DNA from: Tabrizicola sp. TH137
Lineage (GTDB): Bacteria > Pseudomonadota > Alphaproteobacteria > Rhodobacterales > Rhodobacteraceae
Assembly: GCF_002855575.1 (NCBI RefSeq)
Contig: NZ_PKRQ01000001.1
Coordinates: forward strand, 744,001-808,000
Direction: 5' to 3'
DNA: 64,000 nt
Below are positions 36,045 through 51,291 of this stretch, piece after piece. A model generated the notes under the pieces. It saw only the letters and a program-made list of their open reading frames with translations. It searched no databases and was not told the DNA's origin. Numbering within the stretch: the first letter of the stretch is position 1; every line of letters starts with the position of its first letter. The position numbers and the translations under genes are program-made.

Positions 36045-36880
36045 TGCGCGCGGGCCTGGTGCAACTCACCGTCACGGATGATCCGGGCCAGAACCTGCCC
36101 GTCACCCTGTCGCATATCGCCACCGCCGCCACTGGCGGCGCGGGCTTCGTGCTGACGCCGGAATGCACCAATGCGCTCTCGTCAAACCGCGCCCGCCTGC
36201 GCAGCCTGCTGCACCCCGAAGAAACCGACCCCACCCTCGCCGCCCTGCGCGAGGCCGCCGCGAAACACGGCATCTGGCTGCTGGTGGGCTCCCTCGGCCT
36301 GCTCACCACCGATGCCGATGGCCGCTTCGCCAACCGCTCCCTCCTCATCGCGCCCAGCGGCGACATCCACGCCCGCTATGACAAGATCCACATGTTCGAC
36401 GTCAACGTGTCGGAAACCGAGGTCTATCGCGAATCCGCAGGCTACCGCCCCGGCAACCGCGCCGTGCTGACCGACACCCCTTTTGCGAAGATCGGCATGA
36501 CAGTCTGCTACGACGTCCGCTTCCCGCACCTCTACCGCCGCCTCGCCAAATCCGGCGCGCAAATCCTCACCGTTCCCGCCGCCTTCAACCACATCACCGG
36601 CGCGGCGCATTGGGAAACCCTGCTCCGCGCCCGCGCCATCGAAACCGGCTGCTTCATCCTCGCCCCCGCCCAGACCGGCTTCCACCCGGAACATGAGGGC
36701 AAGGGCCGCCGCACCCATGGCCACTCCCTCGCCATCGCACCTTGGGGCGAGGTTCTGGCCGATGCAGGCACTGAACCCTGCGTGACCTTCGTCGATCTCG
36801 ACCTGGACGAAGTGACCAAGGCCCGCGCCCGCATCCCCTCCCTCTCCCATGACCGGGATTTCACGGGTCCCGATCCATGA
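36044..36880 (+). CDS. Carbon-nitrogen hydrolase (Nit1-like amidase)
   Basis: 278 residues. The nitrilase triad is visible: Glu40 (LTPECTN), Lys114 (RYDKIHMFD) and Cys155 (TVCYDVRFP). The sequence around them is of the Nit1/NIT2 branch, where deaminated glutathione amidase or omega-amidase activity is known. Coupling to grxC supports a glutathione-repair role. The ATGA at 36877-36880 couples it to the MarR gene. Confidence 0.9.
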   Translation: MRAGLVQLTVTDDPGQNLPVTLSHIATAATGGAGFVLTPECTNALSSNRARLRSLLHPEETDPTLAALREAAAKHGIWLLVGSLGLLTTDADGRFANRSLLIAPSGDIHARYDKIHMFDVNVSETEVYRESAGYRPGNRAVLTDTPFAKIGMTVCYDVRFPHLYRRLAKSGAQILTVPAAFNHITGAAHWETLLRARAIETGCFILAPAQTGFHPEHEGKGRRTHGHSLAIAPWGEVLADAGTEPCVTFVDLDLDEVTKARARIPSLSHDRDFTGPDP

Positions 36881-37338
36881 AGCCCGCCGACAAGCCCACG
36901 GTCGAGAAAACCGAAGACATCGCCGTCGCCCTCTTCGGCGAACTCTTCATGGCGGATCAGCTCGCCCGCAACCGCATCTCCAAGGTTCTGCCCAAGGGGA
37001 TGGAACTGTCTCATTTCAGCGTGCTGAACCATCTGGCGCGCGTGAACGATGAACGCACCCCCGCCCAGCTTGCCCGCGCCTTCCACGTCACGCGCGGGGC
37101 GATGACCAACACGCTGAACCGGCTGGAATGGGCAGGCCACATCCACATCCGCCCGGATTGGGACGACGCCCGCCGCAAATTCGTGGCGATCAGCCCCGCT
37201 GGCCGCGCCGCCCGCGATGCGGCGGTGCAATCCGTCGCTCCCCTCATCGCCGAAGTGGTGCAGGCGCTGGGCGCCGACCGCGTCCGCGCCGTGCTGCCGG
37301 TGCTACGCGAGATGCGGACAAGGCTGGAAGGCGAGTAG
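36877..37338 (+). CDS. MarR family transcriptional regulator
   Basis: 153 residues. A winged helix lies at about 40-110: ELSHFSVLNHL, TPAQLARAFHVTRGAMTNTLNRLEWAGHI (read in two parts), then the wing RPDWDDARRKFVAISPAGR. It binds DNA as a dimer. Overlaps the nitrilase gene by 4 bp and ends 8 bp from the convergent dhaL. Its ligand and targets are unknown. Confidence 0.9.
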   Translation: MKPADKPTVEKTEDIAVALFGELFMADQLARNRISKVLPKGMELSHFSVLNHLARVNDERTPAQLARAFHVTRGAMTNTLNRLEWAGHIHIRPDWDDARRKFVAISPAGRAARDAAVQSVAPLIAEVVQALGADRVRAVLPVLREMRTRLEGE

Positions 37339-37346
37339 GGCGGGGT

Positions 37347-37949
37347 TCACCCCGCCATACCCACCAGCCCCGCCACCATGATGGCCGCCGAAGCCGCGCC
37401 GGGGTCCATATGCCCCAACACCCGATCCCCCAACCGCTCGGCCCGGCCCAAACCGGCGACCATCCCCTTCGTCGCCTCCGCCCCGGCTTCAGCCGCCGCC
37501 ACGATCTCCGCCGACGTTCCGCCCGCCAGCGCGCATTCCGCCGCCGGATGCCAGGCGTCCAGCATCGTCTTCATCCCCGGTGCCGCCTTCCCGCGATGCA
37601 CGATCCCGTCCCGCATCGCCGGGATGGCCAGCCGCCCAAAATCGCCCTCTGCCACCGCCTCCACCGCGCCCAGCGCCTTGCCCATCCGCAGGAACCCCGT
37701 CGCATAAAGCGGCCCGGAGGAGGCACCGACCGCATTCAGAAACCCCTTCGCCGCCGCGTTGCAGATCTCCTGCAAGCTGCCCTCCACCGCTACCGCAGCC
37801 TCTGCCGCCGCCTTCATCCCCTGCTCCATGGCGATCCCGTGATCGCCATCCCCCACCGCACCATCCAGCGCGCAAAGCGCATCCCGTTCCGCCGCCATCC
37901 GCGTGGCCAGCGCCGCCAGCCGGGCCTTCAGCACCGCCGCATCCACCAT
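37347..37949 (-). CDS. dhaL: Dihydroxyacetone/tetrulose kinase, DhaL subunit
   Basis: 200 residues. The nucleotide-binding DhaL domain has the metal-binding aspartates in LDGAVGDGDHG (about 28-38) and the family's GASSGPLYATGFLRMG and PGAASAA. It is the last gene of the ten-gene operon, 4 bp after dhaK. No DhaM (PTS phosphodonor) gene is present, so an ATP-using two-subunit kinase is likely. In this operon the substrate may be erythrulose rather than dihydroxyacetone. Confidence 0.92.
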   Translation of the reverse strand: MVDAAVLKARLAALATRMAAERDALCALDGAVGDGDHGIAMEQGMKAAAEAAVAVEGSLQEICNAAAKGFLNAVGASSGPLYATGFLRMGKALGAVEAVAEGDFGRLAIPAMRDGIVHRGKAAPGMKTMLDAWHPAAECALAGGTSAEIVAAAEAGAEATKGMVAGLGRAERLGDRVLGHMDPGAASAAIMVAGLVGMAG

Positions 37950-37953
37950 GGCC

Positions 37954-38958
37954 TCACCCCTGCCGGAACATCGCGCAGTCGCAGGGATGGTCGATCAGCC
38001 GCGTCAGTTCCGCGTCCAGATGCATCACCGTGATCGACGCCCCCGCCATGTCGAGAGAGGTGCAATACGGCCCCACCAGCGCCCGATGCACCTCCAGCCC
38101 CGCCTGCGCCAGCCGCGCCGCCACCCGCGCATGCAGGATGTAAAGCTCCATCAAGGGCGTCGCCCCCAGCGAATTGACCAGCACCGCCACCCGGTCCCCC
38201 CGCGCCGCGCCCATCTCGGCTAGGATGGCATCCATGATCTCGTCCACCACCTCATCCGCCGGGCGCAGCGGCCCGCGCCGCACCCCCGGCTCGCCATGGA
38301 TGCCCATGCCGATCTCCATCTCGCCCACCGGCAGGTCGAAACTCGGCCGCCGCGTCTGCGGCAGCGAACAGGAGGACAGCGCCACCCCCATCGTGAAGGT
38401 TCGCGCATTGGCATGGCGCGCGATCCGCTCCACCTCGTCCAGCGGCAGCATCAGGTCCGCCGCCGCCCCCGCCGCCTTGAAGATGAAGACATTGCCCGCC
38501 ACCCCCCGCCGCTTCGCCCGGTCGGGGGAGGACGCGATGTCATCCGTGGTCAGCACCGTCCGCGCCTCCACCCCTTCCATCTCCAGCAGTTCGGTCGCCA
38601 TGTCGAAATTCATCACGTCACCGGCATAGTTGCCGTACATGAACAGGACGCCCGCCCCACCCTGCGCCGCCAGCGCCGCATCGACGGCAGGCTGCGGCGG
38701 TGGCGAGGCGAAGACATTCCCCACCGCGCAGGCATCCGCCAGGCCCTTGCCGACAAATCCAAGGAAGGTCGGCTCATGCCCCGATCCGCCCCCGATCACC
38801 AGCGCCACCTTGCCCTGACGCGGGCCATGCCGTGCGATCACCGCGCGCGGCGCATGGGCAGGCCGCCAAAGGTGACCGGGATGCGCGGCCATGACGCCCG
38901 CAAGCATCTCGTCCACAGCGGCATTGCCGTCATTGATCAGCTTCTGCGTCAGAGCCAT
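37954..38958 (-). CDS. dhaK: Dihydroxyacetone/tetrulose kinase, DhaK subunit
   Basis: 334 residues. It has the substrate-binding IGGGSGHEPTFLGFVGKG and, at about 219, the histidine of MGIHGEPG that forms the covalent hemiaminal with the keto substrate. The real start is ATG 38958; the upstream open frame crosses a 70-bp gap from the aldolase gene. In Mycobacterium smegmatis, DhaK/DhaL-type kinases phosphorylate D- and L-erythrulose, which makes a tetrulose a plausible substrate beside the ery genes. Dihydroxyacetone remains the alternative. Confidence 0.93.
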   Translation of the reverse strand: MALTQKLINDGNAAVDEMLAGVMAAHPGHLWRPAHAPRAVIARHGPRQGKVALVIGGGSGHEPTFLGFVGKGLADACAVGNVFASPPPQPAVDAALAAQGGAGVLFMYGNYAGDVMNFDMATELLEMEGVEARTVLTTDDIASSPDRAKRRGVAGNVFIFKAAGAAADLMLPLDEVERIARHANARTFTMGVALSSCSLPQTRRPSFDLPVGEMEIGMGIHGEPGVRRGPLRPADEVVDEIMDAILAEMGAARGDRVAVLVNSLGATPLMELYILHARVAARLAQAGLEVHRALVGPYCTSLDMAGASITVMHLDAELTRLIDHPCDCAMFRQG

Positions 38959-39028
38959 CGCATCCTCCCCCACCCGCCTCGGCGGGCAGAGTAGAACCAG
39001 CGCCCGCCCTGCGGCAAGCCTGCCGCCC

Positions 39029-40063
39029 TCAGGCCCGCCGCGCCATCGCCTCCAGCGGCAGGGGACGGATGCGGTCGGCATGGCCCGCCGTGCCAAAGGC
39101 CTCGAACCGCTGGCGGCAGACCTCCTGCATCATCGCAATCGCGGGCTTCAGGTATTTGCGCGGGTCGAATTCCGACGGGTCCTCTGCCAGCGTCCGCCGG
39201 ATCGCCGCGGTCATGGCCAGCCGGTTGTCGGTGTCGATGTTCACCTTCCGCACACCGGACCGGATGCCGCGCTGAATTTCTTCCACCGGCACGCCCCATG
39301 TCGGGCGGATGTCCCCGCCATGGCTGTTGATGATCGCCTGCAAATCCTCGGGCACCGACGAAGAGCCGTGCATCACCAGATGCGTATCCGGCAGGCGGCG
39401 GTGAATCTCCTCGATCACATGCATCGCAAGGATCGCCCCGTCCGGCTTGCGGGTAAACTTGTAGGCCCCGTGGCTCGTCCCCATCGCGATGGCCAGCGCA
39501 TCCACCCCCGTCTCGGCCACAAAGCGCGCGGCCTCGTCGGGATCGGTCAGAAGCTGCTCTTCGCCCAGCTTCTCGGTCGCGCCATGGCCATCCTCCTGAT
39601 CGCCCATCCCCGTCTCCAGACTGCCCAGAACGCCCAGTTCGCCTTCGACCGACACGCCGCAGGCATGGGCCATCTGCACCACCGCGCGGGTGATATCGCG
39701 GTTACAGGCGTAATCCGCAGGGGTCTTGCCATCCTCGCGCAGCGACCCGTCCATCATCACCGACGTAAACCCCTGCTGGATCGCGGTCGCGCAGGTGGCA
39801 AGGCTGTTACCATGGTCCAGATGCATGCAGACGGGAATGCCGGGATACATCTCGACCAGCCCGTCGATCAGCCGCGCCAGAACCCGGTCCCCCGCATAGG
39901 CCCGCGCCCCGCGCGACGCCTGCAAGATCACCGGCGCATTGCACTGATGCGCCGCGGCCATGATCGCAAGGCCCTGCTCCATGTTCGAGATGTTGAAGGC
40001 GGGCACGGCATAGCCATGCTCGGCAGCATGGTCGAGAAGCTGACGAAGGGTGATGCGGGCCAT
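39029..40063 (-). CDS. Class II fructose-bisphosphate aldolase, Calvin-cycle subtype
   Basis: 344 residues. Zinc-ligand and catalytic motifs: [33 protein letters not shown] and [12 protein letters not shown]. The length and the C-terminal [10 protein letters not shown] extension fit the CbbA/Calvin subtype. Such aldolases also make sedoheptulose-1,7-bisphosphate from erythrose-4-phosphate and DHAP, which fits a pathway that delivers erythrose-4-phosphate. It follows fbp by 7 bp. Confidence 0.93.
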
Positions 40064-40070
40064 GATATCC

Positions 40071-41069
40071 TCAGTTTTCCATCGGCACGGTGCCGGATTG
40101 CAGTGAAAGCGCGCGGGCGATGATCTCCACCTCCGCCTTCGCGCCAAAGACAAGCGGGGTATTCTCGTGCAGCATGGCGGGCACCCGGTCGAGGATCGGG
40201 CGCAGCCCATCCGTCGCCGCCCCGCCCGCCTGTTCGATCAGAAAGGCGATGGGCACCGCCTCGTAAAGCGTCCGCAACCGCCCTTGGGCATAGCCGGTGC
40301 GACGGTCCGCCGGGTAAAGAAAGCAGCCGCCCTGCAACAGGATGCGGTGCAGCTCGCCCACCGCCGCCGCCAGCCAGCGCATGTTGAAATCGCGGCCGCG
40401 CGGCCCCTCCTTGCCCGCCCGCAGATCGCACGCCCAGGCCTGAAGTGCCTCGGGCCAGTGCCGCTCGTTCGATGCGTTATAGGCGATGACCTTCGCCTCC
40501 TCGGCCAGCCGCACCCCCTGCCGCGTGACGTGGAACCGCCCGCTCTCCGGGTGCAGCGTGGCGATGTCCACGCCTTGCCCGACCGAAAACCCGAAATCGC
40601 AGGAATGCCCGAAGGATGCATAGCCCGCCGCCGCCACCACGCGCCCGGACCGCAGGAACCCCTCCGCCCCGGCCGGATAGACGGCGAAAAGCAATCCCAG
40701 CGGCGCACCGATCCCGATGGACCCCGACCCGTCGATCGGGTCGATGGCCACGTCCCAGGCCCCGCCCGGGGTCAGCACCGCCACCTCTTCCGCCTCTTCC
40801 GATAGCACCTGCCGCACCCCGGCCGCACGCAGCGCCGCCAGCATGTGCTCATGCGCCCCGACATCCAGCGCCTTCTGCCGGTCACCGCTGTCATTCACCC
40901 CGACGATGGCTGTCGGATCGCCCGGAATCCGCCCCGCCGCCAGCCGCGCGACAAGCGGCGGCAGGGCGGCGGCGATAGCCAGAACGATCCGTTCCACCCC
41001 GCCCCGGTCAGGCAAATGATCCTCCAGCAGCCCGGCCGATGGCGGGCCGTCTTGCGGCAATCGCAGCAT
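40071..41069 (-). CDS. fbp: Class 1 fructose-1,6-bisphosphatase (possible sedoheptulose bisphosphatase)
   Basis: 332 residues. The metal and phosphate signature is SEEAEE (about 90-95) and D110[11 protein letters not shown]. Class 1 enzymes of Calvin-cycle organisms often also accept sedoheptulose-1,7-bisphosphate. Next to the aldolase and downstream of the erythritol enzymes, it would finish a route from erythrose-4-phosphate to sedoheptulose-7-phosphate, or simply permit hexose synthesis on erythritol. 20 bp separates it from rpiB. Confidence 0.93.
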
Positions 41070-41089
41070 GTTCGGTCCCTCGCTCCGCC

Positions 41090-41551
41090 TCAGCGGCGGT
41101 TGTACTTCGCGTCCACCGCGTCGATGGCATCCACATTCCCGGCGGACCGGCCCGCCGGATCGAAATCCTTCGTCACCGCCAGCCAGGCATCGGCAATCGC
41201 CTTGGCCAGTTCCGGCCCGATCACCCGCGATCCCATGGTGATGATCTGCGCATTGTTCGACAAAGCCGCCCGTTCGGCGGAATAGGTGTCATGCGTCAGC
41301 GCGGCACGAATGCCCGGCACCTTGTTCGCCGCGATGCAGACCCCGATCCCCGTCCCGCAGACCAGGATCGCGCGGTCATAGGTCCCGTCCAGAACCGCGC
41401 TCGCCACCCGGTCGGACAGATTGGCATAAAAGGCATCCGCCCCCGCCTCCGTCCGGCTGATCTCCGCCACCTCGAAGCGGCCCTTCAGATGGTCGGCCAG
41501 CACCTTCGCCAGACCCTCGCCCGCGCTGTCTCCAGCAATCGCCAGTTTCAT
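41090..41551 (-). CDS. rpiB: RpiB-type isomerase, probable erythrulose-4-phosphate isomerase
   Basis: 153 residues. The LacAB/RpiB fold shows active-site Cys65 ([14 protein letters not shown]) and His of THDTYSAE. In Brucella and rhizobial ery clusters the RpiB homologue (EryI) converts D-erythrulose-4-phosphate into D-erythrose-4-phosphate. ATG 41551 gives the usual N-terminus ([11 protein letters not shown]). It begins 10 bp after the tpiA-like stop. Confidence 0.9.
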
Positions 41552-41561
41552 CTCGCTCTCC

Positions 41562-42326
41562 TCACAATTTGGCGGCGCATCGCGCCAGGATGTCGAGGTA
41601 TCCCTCAACGGCCCAGGCCGAACGCCCGATGAAAAGCCCGTCCACATGCGGGCAGGTGATCAGTTCCTCGCAATTGCCGGGATTGACGGAACCGCCGTAA
41701 AGGCAGGGCACCCGCCGCCCCAGCACATCCTGCGCCACGGCGATGATCTCGGCCTGGCGCGCATCGGCATAATCCGCCGTCGCCGGGATGCCGTTCACCC
41801 CGATGGCCCAGACCGGCTCATAGGCCAGCAGGACCGTCGCCTTGCGCTGCTCGGCCGACAACCGGCCCAGCGCACCGCGCACCTGGCGTTCCAGAACCTC
41901 CGCCGCGCGCCCGGCCTGCCGCTCCTCCAGCGTCTCGCCGATGCAGATCAACGGCACCAGCCCGTGCCGCACCGCCGCCTCCACCTTCAGCCCGACGGTT
42001 TCATCCGTCTCGCCGAAATGCTCCCGCCGCTCCGAATGGCCAAGCTCGACAAGGTCCAGCCCGCAATCCGTCAGCATCACGGGGCTGATCTCGCCCGTCC
42101 AGGCGCCCTGATCGGCCCAATGCATGTTCTGCGCGCCCACCTTGACCGACGTCCCCGCCAGCAGCGCCTTCACCTCGCGCACCGCCGTGAAGGGCGGGAT
42201 GACAAAGCGCTGGATGCGCGCATCCCGCCCCGCCTCGGCCGCGATCAGGCCCTCGGCAAAGACGCGCGCCTCGGCCAGCGTCTTGTGCATCTTCCAGCTC
42301 GTGCCGATCCAGCAGGTCGCGCTCAT
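41562..42326 (-). CDS. tpiA: Triosephosphate isomerase paralogue (EryH/TpiA2-like)
   Basis: 254 residues. TIM-barrel isomerase with Lys12 (GTSWKMHK, where triosephosphate isomerases usually have GNWKMN), His in VELGHSERR, the catalytic Glu in [10 protein letters not shown] and the phosphate loop LYGGSVNP. The Thr-Ser replacement in the first motif is like that of EryH, which isomerises L-erythrulose-1-phosphate. ATG 42326 has an AAGGA box; ATG 42350 would add 8 residues. It follows eryD. Confidence 0.88.
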
Positions 42327-42351
42327 TCCCGTTCCTTCGCCTTCTTCCATC

Positions 42352-43311
42352 TCACACCAGCAGCGCCCGCGCCGTGGCCTCGTCTGTGATCAAGCCGCGC
42401 AGCCGCCCGCTCTCCAGCACCGACCGGATCGCAGCCACCTTGCCGCGCCCGCCCGCGATGGCCACGATCCGCGCCTCCTTCGGCCCGTCCAGATCGACGG
42501 CAAGCAGCCGCGCCGTCAGCGCCGTCTCCACGATCCGCCCGCGCGCGTCGAAGAAATGGCCCAGCATCTCGCCCACGCCGCCCGCCGCCTCGATCTCGTC
42601 GATCTCGCCCGCCTCGATCATGCCGGATGCCACCAGTTGCGCATCCGCCGCCACCGTGCCGATCCCGACGATCTTCAGCGGCGCGCCCCGCGACATGTCA
42701 AAGATCTCCTGCACCCCCGGCTGCGACAGGATCGTCACCCGGTCCTCCGGCGAATTCACGAAGAACGGCACCGGCAGGACAAAGGCCTGCGCCCCCGTCC
42801 TGGCCGCAAGGTTGTGCATCACGTCATGCGGGTTCGCCGCATAGTTCCGCGTCAGCCCGCCCAGCAGCGACACAAATCGCACCGTCCCGGCCTCGATCCG
42901 CGGCATCGCGGTCACCGCCGCCGCCAGCGTCCGCCCATGGCCCAGCCCGATCACCCGGTCGCCGCCCTGTTCGATCTCGCGCCGCAGGAACCCGGCCCCT
43001 GCCACACCCAGCGCGCGCAGCGGCAACCCATCCTCTCCCAGATCGGGCGCCACTTCGGCCTGATCCAGCCCGAAGCTGCGGCACAGCGCATTCTCCAGCC
43101 GGATGCAGTCCACCATCGGGCCATCCACGCTGATCTTCACCAGACCGGCATCCACCGCCCGCGCGATCAACCGATGCGCCTTCACCGAAGGCACGCCCAT
43201 CCGCTTGGCCACAGCCGCCTGCGTCAGCCCGCCCACGTAGTGCAGCCAGGCCGCCCGCACGGCAAGGCTCAGCTCCGGGTCCATGTCGATGCTGCGCGGC
43301 GTCTGGTCCAT
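42352..43311 (-). CDS. eryD: SorC/DeoR-type regulator of erythritol catabolism
   Basis: 319 residues. N-terminal helix-turn-helix at about 28-55 (TQAAVAKRMGVPSVKAHRLI), then a sugar-binding SorC domain (VIGLGHGRTLAAAV, SLLGGLTRNYA, MLGHFFDARG). Brucella EryD is an erythritol-responsive repressor, and position fourth in eryABCD order is the same here. Likely target: the inverted repeat at 47743-47767. It lies 2 bp after the eryC stop. Confidence 0.9.
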   Translation of the reverse strand: MDQTPRSIDMDPELSLAVRAAWLHYVGGLTQAAVAKRMGVPSVKAHRLIARAVDAGLVKISVDGPMVDCIRLENALCRSFGLDQAEVAPDLGEDGLPLRALGVAGAGFLRREIEQGGDRVIGLGHGRTLAAAVTAMPRIEAGTVRFVSLLGGLTRNYAANPHDVMHNLAARTGAQAFVLPVPFFVNSPEDRVTILSQPGVQEIFDMSRGAPLKIVGIGTVAADAQLVASGMIEAGEIDEIEAAGGVGEMLGHFFDARGRIVETALTARLLAVDLDGPKEARIVAIAGGRGKVAAIRSVLESGRLRGLITDEATARALLV

Positions 43312-43313
43312 CC

Positions 43314-44246
43314 CTACACCCGCAAGTCGGCCGCGCCGCTGTCGATATGCGGCGCCCAGAAGGCCACACTTTCGGCAATCTGCGCGATCACCTGCCGGTC
43401 ATTCGGCTCGCGCTCCTTGAAGGACAGTTCCAGACAGATCTCGTTGTCCACTGCCCCGCCTTCCGCAAGCGCCGCCAGCAAGGGCGCAGGCTGCACCCGC
43501 CCCTTCGCATTGTATTCCGCCGTAAAGGGCCGATGCCCCGACTTGTCCATCATCGACTGCTTGATATGGATGATCGGGCTCACCTTCGGGACCGCCCGCG
43601 CCCAGGCGAAGGGGTCGGTATCATCGGGGTTCGGGCTGGTCACGTCGCCATGGTCGATATCGGCCATCATCCACATCGGCACCGCCATCCCCGCCGCCGT
43701 CAGCCGATCCTGCAAGGACAGGCAAGCGGCAATCGTCTCGCCGAACTCCCGCCCGATGCTCATCGGCTCCCAGAAGACATAGGAAAGCCCCGCCGCCCGC
43801 GCATGTTCCGCCACCTCGGCCCAGCAATCGATGGCAATGCGGATCAATTCCTCGCGCCGCGCCGGATCGTCATAGTCGCGATAGGTGAAGATGGCGAATT
43901 GCGTCCCGACCGACGTGCCGCCCAGATCGCCGATGATATCGGCAAAGGTCTTGAACCAGTCCACGTAATAGCGCCGCACGTCGCGGTCGGGATGGCCGAA
44001 ATGGTTCAGCCGCCCGTAGGGCCCCGTCATCCCCGACGTCACCCGCACCCCCGTCCGCTCCAGCGCCGCGCCCATCTGGCGCGTCATCCGGCGGATCACC
44101 GGCGCGGGCCAGGACGGGTTGATGAATTCATGCGTCAACTGAAGGTCGCGGATGCGCAACGCGCGCGCCACCGTCTCGATCAGGTCATCCGGGTCGGCAA
44201 AGCGGTTGACCAGCGGATTGGTGTTCAGCGAAAGCGTCAGACCCAT
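43314..44246 (-). CDS. eryC: TIM-barrel tetrulose-phosphate epimerase/racemase
   Basis: 310 residues of the sugar-phosphate isomerase/epimerase (AP endonuclease 2-like) barrel. Metal-ligand candidates are the Glu in YVFWEPMSIG, Asp/His in MMADIDHGDV, His in IIHIKQS and Glu in ICLELSF. In Brucella EryC converts 3-keto-L-erythrose-4-phosphate to L-erythrulose-1-phosphate. ATG 44246. It starts 7 bp after the eryB stop. Confidence 0.87.
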   Translation of the reverse strand: MGLTLSLNTNPLVNRFADPDDLIETVARALRIRDLQLTHEFINPSWPAPVIRRMTRQMGAALERTGVRVTSGMTGPYGRLNHFGHPDRDVRRYYVDWFKTFADIIGDLGGTSVGTQFAIFTYRDYDDPARREELIRIAIDCWAEVAEHARAAGLSYVFWEPMSIGREFGETIAACLSLQDRLTAAGMAVPMWMMADIDHGDVTSPNPDDTDPFAWARAVPKVSPIIHIKQSMMDKSGHRPFTAEYNAKGRVQPAPLLAALAEGGAVDNEICLELSFKEREPNDRQVIAQIAESVAFWAPHIDSGAADLRV

Positions 44247-44253
44247 GATGTCC

Positions 44254-45768
44254 TCAGGCAGCGGCCAGATGCGCCCGGCCGAACCATTCGGCAAAGGCGG
44301 CGCGTTCGGCCTCGGTCAGGTGCAGGTAATGCTTCGTCCGGCGATACAGCACATCCTCCGCGGTCATCGCCCATTCCCGCTCCACCAGATAGCGCGCCTC
44401 CGCCTCGTAAAGCTGGCCGCCGAAATGCCGCCCCAGCGCCGTCAGCCCCTCGGCCGCGCCCACAAGATCGCGCGTCCGGCTGCCGTAAAGCCGCCCGTAA
44501 TGCTGCACCAGGGCGCGCGGCATCCACGGATAGTCCTCGCGCAGCGCATTGGCGAAAGTCTCGTAATCCGCCCCCGGCATCTCGCCACCCGGCAGCGGTT
44601 CCTGGGCCGTCCAGTCCCCGCCCATCTGCGGAAAGACCGACCGCAGCCGGTGCATCCCCCGCTCGGCCAGTTCACGATAGGTGGTGATCTTGCCGCCGAA
44701 GACGTTCATCAGCGGCGCCCCGCCGGTTTCGTCCAGGTCGAACACATAATCCCGCGTCACCGCCGAGGGGTTGCCCTTCCCGTCATCGAACAGTGGCCGC
44801 ACGCCCGAAAAACTGTGCAGCACGTCCGACCGCCGGAGCTTTTCCTTGAAATAGCGGTTCACCGCCTTCAGCAGATAGTCGATCTCGGACTCATCCGCCG
44901 CCACATCCTCGGCCCGCCCCTCATAAGAGATGTCCGTCGTCCCGATCAGCGCCTTGTCCCCTTCATAGGGGTTGATGAAGATCACCCGCTTGTCGTGGTT
45001 CTGCACCAGATAGGCATTCGACCCGGTCCACCATTTCGGCACGATGATATGGCTGCCCTTCACCAGCCGCACATTGCGGCTGCTGTTCGACCCGGCCACC
45101 CGCCCGATCACGTCCGAAACCCAGGGACCGGCGCAATTCACGATGCAGCGCGCCCGGAACGTCCGCAATTCGCCCGTCGGCAGGTGCTTCACCGTCACCG
45201 TCCAGGCCCCGTTCTCGCGCCGGGCCGAAACCGCCGGGCTGCGCGTCAGGACCAGCGCCCCCTTTTCCCGCGCCGCCACCGCGTTCAGGATCACCAGCCG
45301 CGCATCATCCACCCAGCAATCCGAATACTCGAACCCCTTGGTGTACTGGTCCAGCAGCGCCGCCCCCTCGGGATCGCGCCGCAGGTCCAGAACGCGCGTC
45401 CCCGGCAGCCGCTTCCGCCCGCCCAGATGGTCGTAAAGGAACAGCCCCAGCCGCACCAGCCAGGCAGGCCGGTCCTGCGGCGAATGCGGCAGAACGAACC
45501 GCATCGGCCAGATGATGTGCGGCGCCGCCTGCAACAACACCTCGCGCTCGATCAGCGCCTCGCGCACCAGGCGGAATTCGTAATACTCCAGATAACGCAG
45601 CCCGCCATGCACCAGCTTCCCCGACCGGGACGAGGTGCCTTCCGCCAGATCGCCCTTCTCGCACAGCACGACCTTCAGCCCGCGCCCCGCGGCATCGCGC
45701 GCCACACCGGCGCCGTTGATGCCGCCGCCGATCACGAAAAGGTCGATCATCTCTGCCGTATCCGTCAT
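44254..45768 (-). CDS. eryB: FAD-dependent erythritol-phosphate dehydrogenase (GlpD family)
   Basis: 504 residues. FAD Rossmann motif IGGGINGAGVARDAA (13-27), then the GlpD-family GTSSRSGKLVHGGLRYLE and HSFSGVRPLFDD. It oxidises erythritol phosphate and passes electrons to the quinone pool at the membrane. A second GlpD-like gene (54791) in the window is clearly different, with a shorter FAD-domain identity by eye. The order A-B-C-D supports this copy as EryB rather than glycerol-3-phosphate dehydrogenase. Confidence 0.9.
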   Translation of the reverse strand: MTDTAEMIDLFVIGGGINGAGVARDAAGRGLKVVLCEKGDLAEGTSSRSGKLVHGGLRYLEYYEFRLVREALIEREVLLQAAPHIIWPMRFVLPHSPQDRPAWLVRLGLFLYDHLGGRKRLPGTRVLDLRRDPEGAALLDQYTKGFEYSDCWVDDARLVILNAVAAREKGALVLTRSPAVSARRENGAWTVTVKHLPTGELRTFRARCIVNCAGPWVSDVIGRVAGSNSSRNVRLVKGSHIIVPKWWTGSNAYLVQNHDKRVIFINPYEGDKALIGTTDISYEGRAEDVAADESEIDYLLKAVNRYFKEKLRRSDVLHSFSGVRPLFDDGKGNPSAVTRDYVFDLDETGGAPLMNVFGGKITTYRELAERGMHRLRSVFPQMGGDWTAQEPLPGGEMPGADYETFANALREDYPWMPRALVQHYGRLYGSRTRDLVGAAEGLTALGRHFGGQLYEAEARYLVEREWAMTAEDVLYRRTKHYLHLTEAERAAFAEWFGRAHLAAA

Positions 45769-45779
45769 GCCTCTCTCCT

Positions 45780-47345
45780 TCAGACCCCCCGTCGCGCCCG
45801 CGCCAGCGCCGCCCAGACGGGCGCGCCACCCTGCCGCGCGGCCAGGAAGGCCGGGAACAACCGGTCATAGGTCGCGGCCAGCCGGTCATCCGGCGGCTGC
45901 GCCTCGCTCAAAAGGGGCGTCACCCATTCCGCGATGCAGGCCTCCATGTCGGGATAGGCCCCGATGGCCACCGCGGCCATCATCGCGGCCCCGGCCGCCC
46001 CCGCCTCTTCCCGCGCCGAGGTCCGCACCCGCGCCCGGATCGCCCCGCCAAGAATGGCGCGCAACTGCGCCGACCGCGCCGCGCCGCCGGTCAGCCGCAA
46101 CTCATCCGGCAACGGCCCCATCGCGGCATAGCAATCCCGCATCGCCATCCCCAACCCTTCCACCACGGCGCGCACCATGTCGGGATAACGCGTCGCCATC
46201 GACAGCCCGGCAAACCCCGCCCGCGCCTCGGCATTGACGAAAGGCCCCCGTTCTCCGGCGTCCGAGATATAGGGCAGATAGGCCACCTGTCCCGGCGCGC
46301 TCGCCGCCAGCCAGCCATCCACCCGCGCCACCAAGTCGCGCGGCGCGACCTCCTGCCCGAAGCTGCGCATCACATCCGCCGCCAGCGACAGAACCCAATC
46401 CAGGTTCAGCGTCGCCGCCATGTTCGTCTGCACCTGCGTCACGATCCCCGGCACCGGCAGGCAGATCACATAGCCTGTGCCCTCGGCATTCAGATGCACC
46501 CGCTCCCACGGCACCGCCCGCATGTGGACGCCCGTCGATCCCACCGTCGAACAGGCGATATCGCCACCGTCGCCGCCATGCACGCCCGCGCCCAGCGCCG
46601 TCATAACCATGTCCACATAGCCCAGGCTGACCGGAGTCCCCGCCCGCAGCCCGGTCGCCGCCGCCGCCGCCGGCGTCAGCGGATGCGTGACCTGCGTGCC
46701 ATCCACGATCTCGGGCAGCAGCCCTCGCCGATGCCGCAAGCCCAGCGCCGCGATCACCCCGTCGTCATATTGCCGCGTGCGGAAATTGCCGAAGGTAAAG
46801 CTCGCCTCCGACGGATCGGTCGCCCGCACACCCGTCAGGTTCAGATAAAGCCAGTCCTTGCAATGCAGCGCCACCTCGGCGCGGTCCAGCATCTCGGGCA
46901 TATGCGCATCCATATGCGCCATCTGGCTGCCCTGCTGGCAGGTGTTCAGCCCCGTCCCCGTCGCTTCGAACCGCGCCCGGTTTTCCGCACCCGCCGCCAG
47001 CCGCACCACTGTCGGCGCAGCCCGCGCGTCCAGCCACAGCCAGGCCTCTGCCACCGGGGCATCCTCGGCGCCCACCAGCCAGGTGCCATCGCCCTGCCCT
47101 GTCACGGCCAGCGCCGCCACCCGCGCGCCAAGATCGGCGACATGTTGCGACAAACCGCGAATCGCCGCCACGCAATCCATCCATGTGGTAGCCAGCGACT
47201 GCGTCACCGCCCCCTCCGACGTCGCGCTGTAGCGGTTCGGCACCGCCGACACCGCCACCTGCCGACCGGTCAGATCAAAGGCCACCGCCTTGATGACAGA
47301 CGTGCCCGCATCAATCCCGATGATCAGATCGCCCGTCGAACCCAT
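45780..47345 (-). CDS. eryA: Erythritol kinase (FGGY family)
   Basis: 521 residues. FGGY fold with ATP-site GIDAGTSVIKAVAFD (10-24), substrate-contact VTGQGDGTWL and catalytic Asp in LGYVDMVMTALGAG. The sequence matches my memory of Brucella EryA. First gene of the operon; GGGGGAGGACGGG lies directly before the ATG at 47345. The 585 bp upstream hold the control region shared with the divergent transporter. Confidence 0.9.
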   Translation of the reverse strand: MGSTGDLIIGIDAGTSVIKAVAFDLTGRQVAVSAVPNRYSATSEGAVTQSLATTWMDCVAAIRGLSQHVADLGARVAALAVTGQGDGTWLVGAEDAPVAEAWLWLDARAAPTVVRLAAGAENRARFEATGTGLNTCQQGSQMAHMDAHMPEMLDRAEVALHCKDWLYLNLTGVRATDPSEASFTFGNFRTRQYDDGVIAALGLRHRRGLLPEIVDGTQVTHPLTPAAAAATGLRAGTPVSLGYVDMVMTALGAGVHGGDGGDIACSTVGSTGVHMRAVPWERVHLNAEGTGYVICLPVPGIVTQVQTNMAATLNLDWVLSLAADVMRSFGQEVAPRDLVARVDGWLAASAPGQVAYLPYISDAGERGPFVNAEARAGFAGLSMATRYPDMVRAVVEGLGMAMRDCYAAMGPLPDELRLTGGAARSAQLRAILGGAIRARVRTSAREEAGAAGAAMMAAVAIGAYPDMEACIAEWVTPLLSEAQPPDDRLAATYDRLFPAFLAARQGGAPVWAALARARRGV

Positions 47346-47419
47346 CCCGTCCTCCCCCGCACCAGTCCGGCGGGCCGGCAGCAGGCCTGTCACAGGCCCG
47401 CCCTCTCGCGACCCGCTAA

Positions 47420-47432
47420 ATAACATAGTTAT
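47420..47432. promoter_or_regulatory. Short palindrome on the eryA side
   Basis: ATAAC-ATA-GTTAT, 75 bp before the eryA ATG, in an A+T-rich patch. Its GTTATATC edge loosely resembles the TTATCAC half-site of the stronger operator, so it may be a second, weaker regulator site. This is only a resemblance. Confidence 0.35.
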
Positions 47433-47737
47433 ATCGCAAGGGTAGTATTTTTTTGCAGACTGCGTAAAAAATTTCCGTTACGATCAAGAAAAGGCAGCAA
47501 TTCAAGGGCGCTTCCACGCAGGGCGCCCGGCCCCCAGACAGCAGAATTCCGCAATCAAGGCGCCAGCGCCGTCACGGCTGTTTTTGCTGTATTCCTCAAT
47601 GTTTTCTCGCATTTTCGCTGCGTTGCAGCGCAATGGGCGCATCTGTCCCGCCCTCGCCCCACACCGGGAATCACCGCAACACCCCTCACGCGCCCGCCAA
47701 GCAGCGAAGACGGTCGCAGCTTCAGCAAAGAAGTGTA

Positions 47738-47767
47738 TTGACGTGATAACTAGGTTAGATTTATCAC
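47738..47767 (+). promoter_or_regulatory. Promoter-like hexamers with overlapping perfect operator
   Basis: TTGACG at 47738-47743 could be a -35 box, with TTATCA (47761-47766) or TTTATC one base earlier as a -10 at a 16-17 bp spacing. Overlaid is a perfect inverted repeat GTGATAA (47743-47749) N11 TTATCAC (47761-47767). A repressor bound there would cover the promoter of the transporter genes. EryD and the DeoR protein at 52412 are the two local candidates. Confidence 0.55.
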
Positions 47768-47842
47768 ATAAGCGTGCCAAGGCACATCCGAAGGCCGCGG
47801 GGAAGCCTGCATTGCCCTCGGAAACAGGGAGGAGGACCCAGC

Positions 47843-47926
47843 ATGACCCATGCCACAGCCGCGCTGTGCGCCTGTTGGCCGGTGCCACCGGCCCCTCACC
47901 GCATGACCTTCGCGCCACGGACCTGA
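47843..47926 (+). CDS. 27-codon leader ORF upstream of the transporter operon
   Basis: ATG at 47843 has an excellent ribosome-binding site (AGGGAGGAGGA, 47827-47837). The peptide begins MTHATAALCACWPVPPAP and ends four bases before the next gene's ATG (47931). Inside it, GGCCGGT-GCC-ACCGGCC (47877-47893) forms a perfect 7-bp hairpin. The DUF2291 gene itself has no good ribosome-binding site, so it may depend on translation of the leader. A spurious short frame is the alternative. Confidence 0.45.
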   Translation: MTHATAALCACWPVPPAPHRMTFAPRT

Positions 47927-47930
47927 CGCC

Positions 47931-48587
47931 ATGACCGACGCCACCCCCTCCTCGCAGAAGGCCGCCGCCGGGTCGCGCCGCACCCTGGCGCTTGTCGCCG
48001 CAGGGGTCCTCGCCCTCGCCGCCGCCATCGCCGCCGACACCACCGTCGTCCATATCGGGTCCGAGGCGGATGTCCGCAAGCAGGCCTTCTCTCCCGATGC
48101 CTTCGGTCAGGCCGAATTCCCCCGCATCCAGACCTTCGTGATGGAAAAGGCCGTCGATGGCGTGACCATCGCGCCCGAGGTCCTCGCCGACAAGGCCGCC
48201 GCCTCCGCGAAATACGGCACCGCCTCCTCCACCGGCGCAATTTTGATGGTCCGTCTCACCGGCACGGCGGGCGAGGCGAAGGCTGGCATCTATGATCTCG
48301 CCGTCACCGGAATGCCGCCCGAAATCCGCGTCCGCGTGCAGACCGGCCCCGCCATCAACGGCACCGACCTGCGCGACGCGCCCGGCGACATCGAATTCGG
48401 CGCCTTCAAGAACCAGATCGAATACCAGGATGCCGGGTCCGGCATCAACCGCGCCATGAAGGCCGCCGTCCTCGATTCCATCGACACCGCCACCCTCACC
48501 GGCAAGACAATCGAGGTGGTGGGGGCCTTCCGCCTGATCAATCCGAAGAACTGGCTGATCACCCCGGTCAGCGTCAGCGTGAAGTGA
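47931..48587 (+). CDS. DUF2291 protein of the sugar/polyol ABC transporter operon
   Basis: 218 residues. One N-terminal membrane anchor (about 17-36) is followed by a periplasmic domain typical of DUF2291 (QTFVMEKAVDG, KYGTASSTGAILMVRLTG, KNWLITPVSVSVK). This family sits with ribose-type importers and erythritol importers in rhizobia; its role is unknown. The stop overlaps the ATPase start (GTGA at 48584-48587). Confidence 0.8.
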   Translation: MTDATPSSQKAAAGSRRTLALVAAGVLALAAAIAADTTVVHIGSEADVRKQAFSPDAFGQAEFPRIQTFVMEKAVDGVTIAPEVLADKAAASAKYGTASSTGAILMVRLTGTAGEAKAGIYDLAVTGMPPEIRVRVQTGPAINGTDLRDAPGDIEFGAFKNQIEYQDAGSGINRAMKAAVLDSIDTATLTGKTIEVVGAFRLINPKNWLITPVSVSVK

Positions 48588-50128
48588 TCCGCGCCATGCC
48601 CGACCGCACCCCCATGGCAAAAGGCGAAACCGTCCTCGCGGCGCGCAACATCGCCAAATCCTACGGCGCGATCCAGGCGCTCAAGGGGGTGAATTTCGAC
48701 ATTCACCGCGGTCAGGTGACCACGCTCTTCGGCGAAAACGGCGCGGGCAAATCCACCCTGATGAAGATCCTTTCGGGCATCGTCCGGCCCACCTCGGGCC
48801 AGATCATCCTCGACGGCCAGCCGGTCATCCTTGCCAATGCCAACGACGCCCGCGCCCGCGGCATTTCCATCATCCATCAGGAACTCAGCCTCGCCCCGAA
48901 CCTCTCCGTCCGCGACAACATCTTCATGGGGCGCGAAATTCCCGGCACCTTCGGCGTGGACTATGCCGAAGAGGAACGCCAGGTCCGCCGCCTGATGACG
49001 GAACTGGAAGAGGATATCGACCCGCTCACCCCGGTCGAGGATCTCCGCCTCGGCCAGCAGCAGATCGTGGAAATCGCCCGCGCCCTCTCCGTGGACAGCC
49101 GCATCCTCATCATGGACGAACCCACCTCCGCCCTTTCGGCGACCGAGGTGGAGGTGCTCTTCAAGGTCATCCGCGACCTCACCGCCAAGGGCGTCAGCAT
49201 CGTCTATATCTCGCACCATCTCGAAGAGGCGCTCCAGATCACCGATCACGCCGTCGTCCTGCGCGACGGCACCATGACAGCCAGCGCCCCCCGCGCCGAG
49301 ATCGACCTCGAATGGATCGTCCGCAACATGGTGGGCGAAAACTACGATCTCGGTTCCCCGCCCGAAACGGAATTCGGCCCCGTCGCGCTCTCCATCCGCG
49401 ACCTGACGGTGAAAGATCCGCAGGGCGCCGGCTACAATGTGGTGGACCGCCTCTCGCTCGACGTCCGCGCCGGCGAGGTGGTCTGCATCTACGGCCTGAT
49501 GGGCGCGGGCCGCACCGAACTTCTGGAAACCGTCGCAGGCCGCCTGCGCGCCTCCGGTGGCCAGATCCTGCACAAGGGCGAAGAGGTCTCCCACCTCTCG
49601 ATTGCCCAGCGCATCGCGCGGGGCCTCGCCCTTGTTCCCGAAGACCGCCAGCGTGACGGGCTGGTGCAGACCATGACCGTCGGGCAGAACCTGTCGCTCG
49701 CCTCCATCATGGCCTTCACCCGCGGCCTGTTCACCAGTCGCAGCGCCGAACAGGCCATCATCGACGACACGATCCGCAAGGTCACGGTCAAGACCGACGG
49801 CGGCGAGGCCGCCATCGGCTCGCTCTCGGGCGGCAACCAGCAGAAGGTCGTCATCGGCAAGATGCTGGCCACCGATCCCAGCGTGATCCTGCTCGACGAA
49901 CCCAGCCGCGGCATCGACATCGGCGCCAAGGGCGAGGTGTTCCGCCTTCTGGCCGAACGCGCGAAACAGGGCCTCGCCGTGATCTACTCCACCTCCGAAG
50001 TCGGCGAATGCCTGTCGATCGCCCATCGGATCATCGTCATGCACAAGGGCCGGATCTCGGCCGAATTCGATTCCACCGTCAGCAAGGAAATGATCATGGC
50101 CGCCTCGGGCGAGTCCGTGGCGGCCTGA
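48584..50128 (+). CDS. Sugar/polyol ABC importer ATPase with two ATPase domains
   Basis: 514 residues, RbsA/XylG/MglA layout. Domain 1 has Walker A GENGAGKST near residue 50 and a degenerate signature (LRLGQQQ). Domain 2 near 305 has the family's altered Walker A (GLMGAGRTELLE) and a signature LSGGN near 415. Start may be GTG 48584 (GTGA overlap) or the ATGs at 48596 and 48614. It should energise erythritol uptake (EryE/F/G-type system), judged from its place opposite eryA. Confidence 0.88.
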   Translation: MIRAMPDRTPMAKGETVLAARNIAKSYGAIQALKGVNFDIHRGQVTTLFGENGAGKSTLMKILSGIVRPTSGQIILDGQPVILANANDARARGISIIHQELSLAPNLSVRDNIFMGREIPGTFGVDYAEEERQVRRLMTELEEDIDPLTPVEDLRLGQQQIVEIARALSVDSRILIMDEPTSALSATEVEVLFKVIRDLTAKGVSIVYISHHLEEALQITDHAVVLRDGTMTASAPRAEIDLEWIVRNMVGENYDLGSPPETEFGPVALSIRDLTVKDPQGAGYNVVDRLSLDVRAGEVVCIYGLMGAGRTELLETVAGRLRASGGQILHKGEEVSHLSIAQRIARGLALVPEDRQRDGLVQTMTVGQNLSLASIMAFTRGLFTSRSAEQAIIDDTIRKVTVKTDGGEAAIGSLSGGNQQKVVIGKMLATDPSVILLDEPSRGIDIGAKGEVFRLLAERAKQGLAVIYSTSEVGECLSIAHRIIVMHKGRISAEFDSTVSKEMIMAASGESVAA

Positions 50129-50152
50129 GCGGGAAAGTAGCGGAGCCAACCG

Positions 50153-51190
50153 ATGTCGGACACGACCATTTCCAGAAAAAGCGGCGGCAAGCCCCTCAGC
50201 CTCGGCCGGCTTCTGCTGGAAGGGCGGGCCTTCTTCGCCCTCATCGCCATCGTGGCCGTGTTCTCCTTCCTTTCGCCGAACTACTTCACCGTCTCGAACT
50301 TCCTCATCATGGCCAGCCAGGTGGCGATCTACGGCATCCTCGCCATCGGGATGCTGCTCGTGATCCTCAATGGCGGGATCGACCTGTCGGTCGGCTCCGT
50401 GCTCGCGCTCTGCGGCGTACTTGCCGGGGCAATGATGCAGGGGCTCGAACTGACCTCGCTCGGCGTGATCCTCTACTTCCCGGTCTGGGCCGTGGTCGTC
50501 CTCACCGTCGCCATCGGCGGCGCAGTGGGGGCGATCAACGGCATCCTCATCGCCTGGTTCCGCGTCCCCGCCTTCGTCGCCACCCTCGGCGTGATGTATG
50601 TCGCCCGCGGTGTCGCCCTGCTGCTCACCAACGGGCTGACCTACAACAATCTCTCGGGCCGCCCCGAGCTTGGCAATACCGGCTTCGACTGGATCGGCTT
50701 CAACCGCCTCGCGGGCATCCCGATCTCGGTCCTCATCCTCTTCGGCATCGCCATCCTCGCCGGGCTGATGCTTTCGCGCTCCTCCTTCGGGCGCTGGCTC
50801 TATGCCTCGGGCGGCAACGAACGCGCCGCCGATCTGTCCGGCGTCCCGGTCAAGCGGGTGCAGATCACCGTCTATACCCTGTCGGGGATGCTGGCCGCCA
50901 TCGCGGGCCTCGTCCTGTCCTCGCAGCTCACCTCGGCCGGCCCCACCGCCGGCACCACCTACGAACTGACGGCCATCGCTGCCGTCGTCATCGGCGGGGC
51001 CGCCCTGACCGGCGGGCGCGGCACGGTGCGCGGCACCATGCTGGGCGCCTTCGTCATCGGCTTCCTGTCCAACGGCCTCGTGATCATCGGCGTGTCCTCC
51101 TACTGGCAGACCGTCTTCACCGGGGCGGTGATCGTCCTCGCGGTGCTCACCAACTCCATCCAATACGGCAAGGGCACCCGAAAGACCTGA
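50153..51190 (+). CDS. Sugar/polyol ABC importer permease
   Basis: 345 residues, RbsC-type membrane protein with about 8-10 hydrophobic segments. Family motifs are visible: ILNGGIDLSVGSVLAL, FVATLGVMYVARG, and GGNERAADLSGVPVKRVQ followed by GGRGTVRGTMLGAF. GGAGCCAACC precedes the ATG. Probably the channel for erythritol or a related tetritol/pentitol. Confidence 0.9.
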   Translation: MSDTTISRKSGGKPLSLGRLLLEGRAFFALIAIVAVFSFLSPNYFTVSNFLIMASQVAIYGILAIGMLLVILNGGIDLSVGSVLALCGVLAGAMMQGLELTSLGVILYFPVWAVVVLTVAIGGAVGAINGILIAWFRVPAFVATLGVMYVARGVALLLTNGLTYNNLSGRPELGNTGFDWIGFNRLAGIPISVLILFGIAILAGLMLSRSSFGRWLYASGGNERAADLSGVPVKRVQITVYTLSGMLAAIAGLVLSSQLTSAGPTAGTTYELTAIAAVVIGGAALTGGRGTVRGTMLGAFVIGFLSNGLVIIGVSSYWQTVFTGAVIVLAVLTNSIQYGKGTRKT

Positions 51191-51291
51191 CGCCGAACCT
51201 TCTTCTCTGTCCGGGACCGGCAATGGGTCGGCCCGCACGGGAAAGCTGCCCGGAAACGGCAAAAGACCACTGTCCAAGAGGGAGAGAGACA

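Follow-up and report, generated by a model that had tools for sequence, protein, structure and literature searches.

Why should an operon for the breakdown of erythritol include an aldolase and a sugar bisphosphatase? The question is raised by a run of ten genes in a 64,000-nucleotide stretch of the genome of Tabrizicola sp. TH137 (contig NZ_PKRQ01000001.1, positions 744,001 to 808,000; hereafter the window). Positions 37347-47345 of the window are filled by ten intact open reading frames (ORFs), all co-directional on the minus strand, in the order eryA-eryB-eryC-eryD-tpiA2-rpiB-fbp-fba-dhaK-dhaL. We propose that they form an operon for the catabolism of erythritol (a tetritol), in which the final enzymes would hard-wire the exit of erythrose-4-phosphate, a reading that gene content and the analogy with Brucella make quite probable.

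A complete set of erythritol genes joined to fbp and fba

The upstream part of the run comprises the entire Brucella-type erythritol pathway, that is, EryA, EryB, EryC, EryH and EryI together with the EryD regulator. The eryA gene (45780-47345) encodes a predicted erythritol kinase of the FGGY family (PF00370, 148.6 bits; PF02782, 73.5 bits), 62-82% identical to EryA from the ery loci of relatives. It is followed by eryB (44254-45768), for a predicted FAD-dependent erythritol-phosphate dehydrogenase of the GlpD type (PF01266, 217.2 bits; NF009906, 861.8 bits), and by eryC (43314-44246), whose product is a putative tetrulose-phosphate racemase/isomerase with a triosephosphate isomerase (TIM) barrel (PF01261, 39.0 bits). 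In most relatives' ery loci EryC is 83-93% identical to that of the window, the exceptions being L024 (49%) and L052 (64%). A SorC-type sugar-binding regulator is encoded by eryD (42352-43311; PF04198, 237.8 bits). The two predicted isomerases are TpiA2/EryH (41562-42326), a triosephosphate isomerase-like protein that would act on tetrulose phosphate (PF00121, 247.4 bits), and RpiB/EryI (41090-41551), which belongs to the D-erythrulose-4-phosphate isomerase subtype (NF051858, 253.8 bits, cut-off 240) and would yield erythrose-4-phosphate.

Next come the two genes that prompt our question. The class II ketose-bisphosphate aldolase Fba (39029-40063) scores 594.7 bits against TIGR01521 (cut-off 496.35), which we take to be the model of the "Calvin subtype"; the search output named it only as class II fructose-bisphosphate aldolase. 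Its probable role is the condensation of dihydroxyacetone phosphate (DHAP) with erythrose-4-phosphate. The fbp gene (40071-41069) specifies a class I fructose-1,6-bisphosphatase (FBPase) that exceeds the cut-offs of PF00316 and PF18913 and falls 0.1 bit short of the nearest NCBIfam model, NF006780 for class 1 FBPases (357.9 bits, cut-off 358). From the activity described for Brucella Fbp (PMC11005471), it is probably a sedoheptulose-1,7-/fructose-1,6-bisphosphatase. The run ends with dhaK (37954-38958; PF02733, 396.7 bits) and dhaL (37347-37949; PF02734, 136.1 bits; TIGR02365, 148.5 bits, cut-off 138.3), for the ketose-binding and nucleotide-binding subunits, respectively, of a DhaK-type kinase, proposed below to act on erythrulose.

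The initial annotation had described ten close-packed genes on one strand, and the intact ORFs, the family matches and the spacing all bear this out. With start codons corrected, the gaps range from 2 to 70 bp: 11 (eryA-eryB), 7 (eryB-eryC), 2 (eryC-eryD), 25 (eryD-tpiA2), 10 (tpiA2-rpiB), 20 (rpiB-fbp), 7 (fbp-fba), 70 (fba-dhaK) and 4 bp (dhaK-dhaL). Thus, fbp and fba are coupled to the erythritol genes by gaps of 20 and 7 bp, and the linkage is kept in relatives. A consensus scan of positions 36800-48700 was little informative, returning no sigma-70-like promoter (1.3 in shuffled sequences) and nine terminator-like patterns (5.0 in shuffled sequences).

In the pathway that we envision, EryA, EryB, EryC, TpiA2/EryH and RpiB/EryI would convert erythritol to D-erythrose-4-phosphate, as they do in Brucella. 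Fba would then join erythrose-4-phosphate and DHAP into sedoheptulose-1,7-bisphosphate, and Fbp would hydrolyze the latter irreversibly to sedoheptulose-7-phosphate; both steps have experimental precedent in Brucella. Transketolase would carry the product to pentose phosphates and, with further erythrose-4-phosphate, to fructose-6-phosphate. The transketolase gene is presumably located elsewhere in the genome: a search, which covered the window only, gave no match. On balance, three molecules of erythrose-4-phosphate plus water would give two of fructose-6-phosphate plus phosphate, with triose phosphate behaving as a catalyst. DhaKL, most likely, would phosphorylate erythrulose and thereby bring a further tetrose to the operon's isomerases. 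Among the loci examined, the window presents the most compact form of this system, a single run leading from erythritol to sedoheptulose-7-phosphate.

Linkage of the aldolase-bisphosphatase pair to tetrose genes in relatives

When named genomes were scanned with the window FBPase, at least 489 relatives were obtained. The best 80 loci, picked by similarity to this protein, were kept; they consist of five Calvin operons, recognized by the presence of phosphoribulokinase (L077-L081), and 75 non-Calvin loci. In the non-Calvin group, fba is adjacent to fbp and on the same strand in 65 loci, rpiB and tpiA2 are both present in 58, and ery genes in 38. A transketolase gene, whose product is 44-62% identical to the query, is found in 49 of the 75 (and in 44 of the 58 with the isomerases), a transaldolase gene in four and a close dhaK in four. 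Searches of these 75 loci for gap, GlpX, class I aldolase and phosphoribulokinase gave no match. Since the same genes occur together in many other genomes, their arrangement cannot be due to chance.

The loci L003 (Rubellimicrobium) and L004 (Tabrizicola), whose FBPases are among the nearest to that of the window in the matches listed, contain the same genes, dhaKL included. As to the gene order, which the initial annotation had proposed to seek in other genomes, that of these two loci departs from the window: eryD and tpiA2 are separated by a divergent transketolase gene (tkt) and a DeoR gene. The window resembles the L003/L004 layout from which tkt and DeoR have been taken out. On the Roseibium aggregatum RF14 plasmid (L143), genes for a kinase, a dehydrogenase, a TIM-barrel protein and a regulator (eryABCD by homology) are followed by tkt and DeoR-tpi-rpiB-fbp-fba. 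The eryABCD and DeoR-tpi-rpiB-fbp-fba blocks of this plasmid run in one direction, as in the window; the differences are the divergent tkt and the DeoR gene between eryD and tpi, and the absence of dhaKL from the stretch shown. A Paracoccus seriniphilus plasmid carries the order DeoR-tpi-rpiB-fbp-fba, and a Rhizobium etli plasmid (L141) the order tkt-fbp-fba-tpi-rpiB. The R. etli set (L141:7827-16509) lies near a gene for a four-carbon acid sugar kinase, with no eryA in the 20.8 kb shown. Judging from this locus, tetroses besides erythritol might also be served by the module.

Both the R. etli and the Roseibium transketolases pass TIGR00232. Transketolase genes near fbp-fba were located at about 4851-6818 in L003, from about 6894 in L048, from about 6866 in L058, at L141:7827-9836 and at L143:4804-6819. 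A transaldolase-family gene is also seen in the tetritol loci L045, L048, L050 and L054, and in genomes G039 (L093) and G133 (L106).

A less biased view of the linkage comes from a survey of the same family, with 198 genomes. DerI-type rpiB (at least 228 bits; G022, with 171 bits, was left out) was present in 16 genomes and ery-type fbp (at least 58% identity) in ten, with seven genomes having both (Fisher p = 6e-7, uncorrected for relatedness). In six of these seven, no more than about 2 kb separates rpiB from fbp; G077 has the two genes on different contigs. As a control, 57 genomes with other class I FBPase matches were considered; DerI-type rpiB was found in five of them, with no link of this kind (p = 0.78). 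In a second alphaproteobacterial family, also taken as a control, 37 of 200 genomes matched; phosphoribulokinase is beside fbp in 29 of the 30 loci given, and the isomerase pair is in none of the 30, each of these loci covering only about 4 kb. A class-level survey for DerI (two above the cut-off in 385) was of little use, as it held mostly one or a few genomes per family.

A separate lineage of FBPases

Resemblances to carbon fixation operons do exist: Fba and Fbp of the window are 60-69% and 43-48% identical, respectively, to their counterparts in the Calvin operons L077-L081, and the motif GRDFNMRW, found in 72 of the 77 non-Calvin FBPases, is common to all five Calvin enzymes and missing from Escherichia coli Fbp. 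Still, it is highly improbable that the window harbors a Calvin-cycle module or a displaced cbb operon. In a tree of 83 FBPases (long branches flagged; L076 omitted as too short), the 77 non-Calvin sequences form one clade with 100/100 support, outside of which are the five Calvin CbbF proteins. The only RuBisCO-family (ribulose bisphosphate carboxylase/oxygenase) match in the genome is closest to OiaX (449 bits, under the cut-off of 700 of that model) and far under the cut-offs of the RuBisCO models, and phosphoribulokinase is absent from the window, no genome-wide search for it having been made. The Calvin cycle was rejected on the last two grounds. The OiaX-like protein, encoded at L091:889-2343 beside a regulator that by eye resembles GntR/FadR, possibly participates in the use of an apiose-type sugar.

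The two groups of FBPases also differ at a second motif, DPxDGSG in 72 of the 77 non-Calvin proteins and DPxDGSS in the five Calvin enzymes and in E. coli Fbp. The exceptions are L057, with GSS, and L027, L028, L031 and L074, with GSN. The latter four loci (three from Pseudogemmobacter and one from a Paracoccus sp.) have in common a compact eryABCD-tpiA2-rpiB-fbp run with no adjacent fba; their DPIDGSN sequence, in place of DPxDGSG, appears as if constraint had shifted upon loss of fba. Linked transketolases likewise separate from the Calvin ones (50 versus 5; 99 in the Shimodaira-Hasegawa-like approximate likelihood ratio test, SH-aLRT) in a quick tree built without alphaproteobacterial housekeeping transketolases.

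Taken together, these patterns inspire a broader proposal, on which our own judgment is evenly divided: tetritol loci of Alphaproteobacteria may carry a dedicated sedoheptulose-bisphosphate cycle, made up of a separate FBPase lineage turned into a sedoheptulose-1,7-bisphosphatase, a class II aldolase of its own and, in many cases, a transketolase of its own. Such a cycle would act as an irreversible converter of erythrose-4-phosphate to fructose-6-phosphate, comparable to the regenerative half of a Calvin cycle that fixes no CO2.

Housekeeping functions and gluconeogenesis

The operon genes might have been the sole housekeeping copies of fbp and fba. The assembly (4.66 Mb in 38 contigs, completeness estimate 100%) has no other class I FBPase match than the operon fbp; however, GlpX is encoded elsewhere (338.4 bits, cut-off 259.3), which rules out this role for fbp. 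For fba it is ruled out less firmly, by a weak class I aldolase match elsewhere in the genome (29.8 bits, cut-off 22.2), next to an ORF read as pgk by eye only. The genome has two class II aldolase-family genes, the second of which adjoins an IolB-like gene (itself below the cut-off of its model). With GlpX and a class I aldolase available, the operon pair looks dedicated and, judging from the gene content, neither fba nor fbp seems to be needed for housekeeping.

A related possibility is that the pair performs ordinary gluconeogenesis, making fructose-6-phosphate from trioses derived from erythritol with sedoheptulose bisphosphate as an incidental substrate. This was proposed for Brucella in 2012 (PMC3522698) and agrees with the family names, fructose-bisphosphate aldolase and class 1 FBPase, as well as with the activity of the Brucella enzymes on fructose-1,6-bisphosphate (PMC11005471). 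We find it unlikely here. Not only are GlpX and a class I aldolase already available but, according to the same 2024 report, erythritol enters Brucella metabolism as erythrose-4-phosphate rather than as a triose, and Brucella Fbp is about four times as efficient on the seven-carbon substrate (kcat/Km of 710 for sedoheptulose-1,7-bisphosphate versus 171 for fructose-1,6-bisphosphate; Table 1 of PMC11005471); the corresponding values for Brucella GlpX are 9 and 74. Furthermore, fbp-fba is linked to transketolase in many relatives, and no match to gap was obtained among the 75 non-Calvin loci. The gluconeogenic and sedoheptulose functions can coexist.

Transaldolase and the likely benefit of a proposed second outlet

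Several observations weigh against a dedicated outlet through sedoheptulose bisphosphate. To begin with the loci themselves, the isomerases are missing from 17 of the 75 non-Calvin fbp loci and an adjacent fba from ten (15 of the 75 loci are shorter than 15 kb). Nine of the 16 genomes with DerI-type rpiB have no ery-type fbp. The 16 DerI loci, namely 15 fetched regions and the window, were examined out to about 9 kb from rpiB, or less where a contig ended; neither fbp, tkt nor a transaldolase gene (tal) is found in eight, at least one being present in the other eight. Transketolase is found in just two of the 16 (G039 and G042), versus 49 of the 75 loci picked by similarity; the high rate in that first sample stems from the lineages it holds. 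Transaldolase also occurs in two (G039 and G133), G039 having fbp, tkt and tal together. In G133, transaldolase is beside rpiB and the genome has no class I FBPase match, an arrangement that fits the logic of a transaldolase or an FBPase route. The outlet module is common, not universal.

The remaining objections concern transaldolase. Genes of the transaldolase family (PF00923) are present in 196 of the 198 genomes of the family, including all ten with ery-type fbp, so that a missing transaldolase was discarded as the reason for the module. Tabrizicola sp. TH137 itself has one such gene (C36; TIGR00875, 279.7 bits, cut-off 245.95); since TIGR00875 is a fructose-6-phosphate aldolase model (fsa_talC_mipB), the gene belongs to the TalC/FSA family and is only a candidate for a true transaldolase. 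Finally, we drew up a small reaction list to model fluxes, in which fructose-6-phosphate, ribose-5-phosphate or pyruvate was the sole product besides CO2. In this model, transaldolase alone gives the same yield of fructose-6-phosphate as the sedoheptulose route alone (eight from 12 erythrose-4-phosphate, the oxidative pathway alone giving six). Moreover, when transaldolase and the oxidative pathway are both removed, the sedoheptulose route cannot deliver ribose-5-phosphate as the sole product.

These results change the original idea in part. The initial annotation viewed fba and fbp as a transaldolase-free outlet into sedoheptulose-7-phosphate. That both genes belong to the erythritol module is upheld by the gene neighborhoods, by the occurrence of GlpX and a class I aldolase elsewhere in the genome and by the separate FBPase clade, and the reactions themselves were demonstrated in Brucella in 2024 (PMC11005471). 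What does not survive is their role as a substitute for transaldolase: with a TalC/FSA-family gene in the genome, and the fructose-6-phosphate yields of the model being equal, the Fba/Fbp route would operate beside transaldolase, as a parallel outlet and not a replacement. A yield advantage was ruled out by the same equality, so the gain from a second route must be other than yield. The benefit is likely to reside in an irreversible pull on erythrose-4-phosphate and in independence from the transaldolase equilibrium. In the model, erythrose-4-phosphate is unusable without transketolase, and also unless transaldolase, the sedoheptulose-bisphosphate route or the oxidative pathway is available. 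That transketolase is always required agrees with the presence of its genes in the loci of relatives.

The DhaK-type kinase

What might a kinase of the DhaK type contribute to this operon? The initial annotation assigned dhaKL no function. From its genomic context, DhaKL is a reasonably good candidate for an erythrulose (tetrulose) kinase feeding the operon's isomerases. Kinases of this type are reportedly employed in the tetritol pathways of Mycolicibacterium. The window DhaK is 93% identical to that of L003, 92% to that of L004 and 89% to that of L007, and 93% to that of L002 over the 197 residues available there. Alternatively, DhaKL could act as a dihydroxyacetone kinase and provide the aldolase with DHAP. 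The NCBIfam and solved-structure matches, which are dihydroxyacetone kinases, speak for this activity, as does the location of dhaKL directly after fba in the window, L003 and L004. We rate it as rather doubtful. DHAP is already supplied by triosephosphate isomerase. Besides, there are three other DhaK genes in the genome; TIGR02363 and NF011049 are matched below cut-off, and by dhaK alone; and in G188 (L103) and G111 (L104), full-length dhaK and dhaL are about 5 kb or less away from tpiA2-rpiB, with no fbp or fba found in the fetched regions. A further argument against it is the order tpiA2-rpiB-kinase-dehydrogenase-dhaK-dhaL in L097. G065 was dropped from the loci with dhaK and no fbp, its dhaK match spanning only 43 residues. 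A role of DhaKL as tetrulose kinase finds a parallel in the Mycolicibacterium tetritol pathways described in PMC12780249, which pass through free erythrulose and erythrulose-4-phosphate.

The DhaM/EIIA gene of PTS-dependent DhaKLM systems was not encountered with dhaKL, the gene after dhaL being of the MarR type and on the other strand; DhaM was not searched genome-wide. Elsewhere in the genome, a 699-residue frame (L088:358-2457) combines a sugar-binding regulator resembling EryD with an entire DhaK domain. This protein is possibly a regulator that binds ketose through its DhaK part.

Divergent genes

On the plus strand, divergent from eryA, lies a set of genes that by homology encode an ATP-binding cassette (ABC) transporter for sugars, with a DUF2291 lipoprotein, an ATPase, a permease and a periplasmic binding protein (47931-52239). 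Tetritol uptake is its probable function, and homologues of the ATPase and permease are found near eryA in several loci (e.g., L014, L033 and L035). The divergent set continues, again by homology, with a DeoR regulator, a second FGGY kinase and a second GlpD-like dehydrogenase (52412-56443). The kinase/dehydrogenase pair (53271-56443) may serve another tetritol such as threitol, a substrate at which we can only guess; a pair of this kind is also behind rpiB in L048, L050, L054 and L097.

Comparison with known systems

In Calvin cbb operons (L077-L081), an FBPase of a related family, an aldolase and a transketolase are encoded together as in the tetrose loci; these operons differ in carrying phosphoribulokinase and in having an FBPase and a transketolase that fall outside the tetrose-locus groups. 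Among the ery loci of Mesorhizobium and other Rhizobiales, those of Mesorhizobium include a putative fructose-bisphosphate aldolase gene. In M. loti it was noted in 2013 beside eryR-tpiB-rpiB, with a homologue next to rpiB in Brucella (PMC3599248). Term searches of the main text of that paper found no bisphosphatase, transketolase, transaldolase or dhaK.

Another close relative is the Brucella system. The B. abortus cluster BAB2_0364-0378, reported in 2012, is induced by erythritol and consists of fbp, fba, rpiB, tpiA2, deoR, eryDCBA and a transporter (PMC3522698). An ery cluster with fbp and fba had thus been described, although the initial annotation was aware of no ery operon with this set. 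The likeness extends to the catabolic genes, to the adjoining fbp and fba and to the transporter. In Brucella, however, fbp-fba is a separate unit on the opposite strand, whereas here all genes are in a single co-directional run; a DeoR gene, lacking in the run of the window, separates eryD from tpiA2; and dhaKL is not among the genes named in that account. In 2024, erythritol carbon was found to be carried via sedoheptulose-1,7-bisphosphate by the Fba/Fbp route in Brucella, and a tal fba double mutant failed to grow on erythritol (PMC11005471). The same chemistry is proposed here as for the Fba/Fbp-Bbp bypass of B. suis biovar 5, where DHAP and erythrose-4-phosphate are condensed and the product dephosphorylated to sedoheptulose-7-phosphate. 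In that organism, Fba is also needed for gluconeogenesis and a third phosphatase, Bbp, is involved (PMC11005471), whereas Tabrizicola sp. TH137 has separate genes for a class I aldolase and for GlpX.

A partial search of the literature, which is weak evidence of absence, disclosed no publication that describes this ten-gene order or an ery locus with a transketolase gene. The core scheme, with Fba and Fbp acting via sedoheptulose-1,7-bisphosphate, is already known from Brucella; the gene packing is new. As far as we have searched, novelty would lie in the single run with dhaKL, in the association of transketolase with FBPase and aldolase across many tetritol loci and in a distinct FBPase clade, a candidate for a group of sedoheptulose bisphosphatases outside the Calvin cycle. 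The compact gene set could aid the use of erythritol by bacteria, where the exit of erythrose-4-phosphate appears to be limiting: engineered E. coli grows better on erythritol when tal and tkt expression is raised (PMC10190533). Our observations suggest that in many environmental Alphaproteobacteria, where it could safely be examined, the route identified genetically in Brucella is encoded as part of the equipment for tetritol use.

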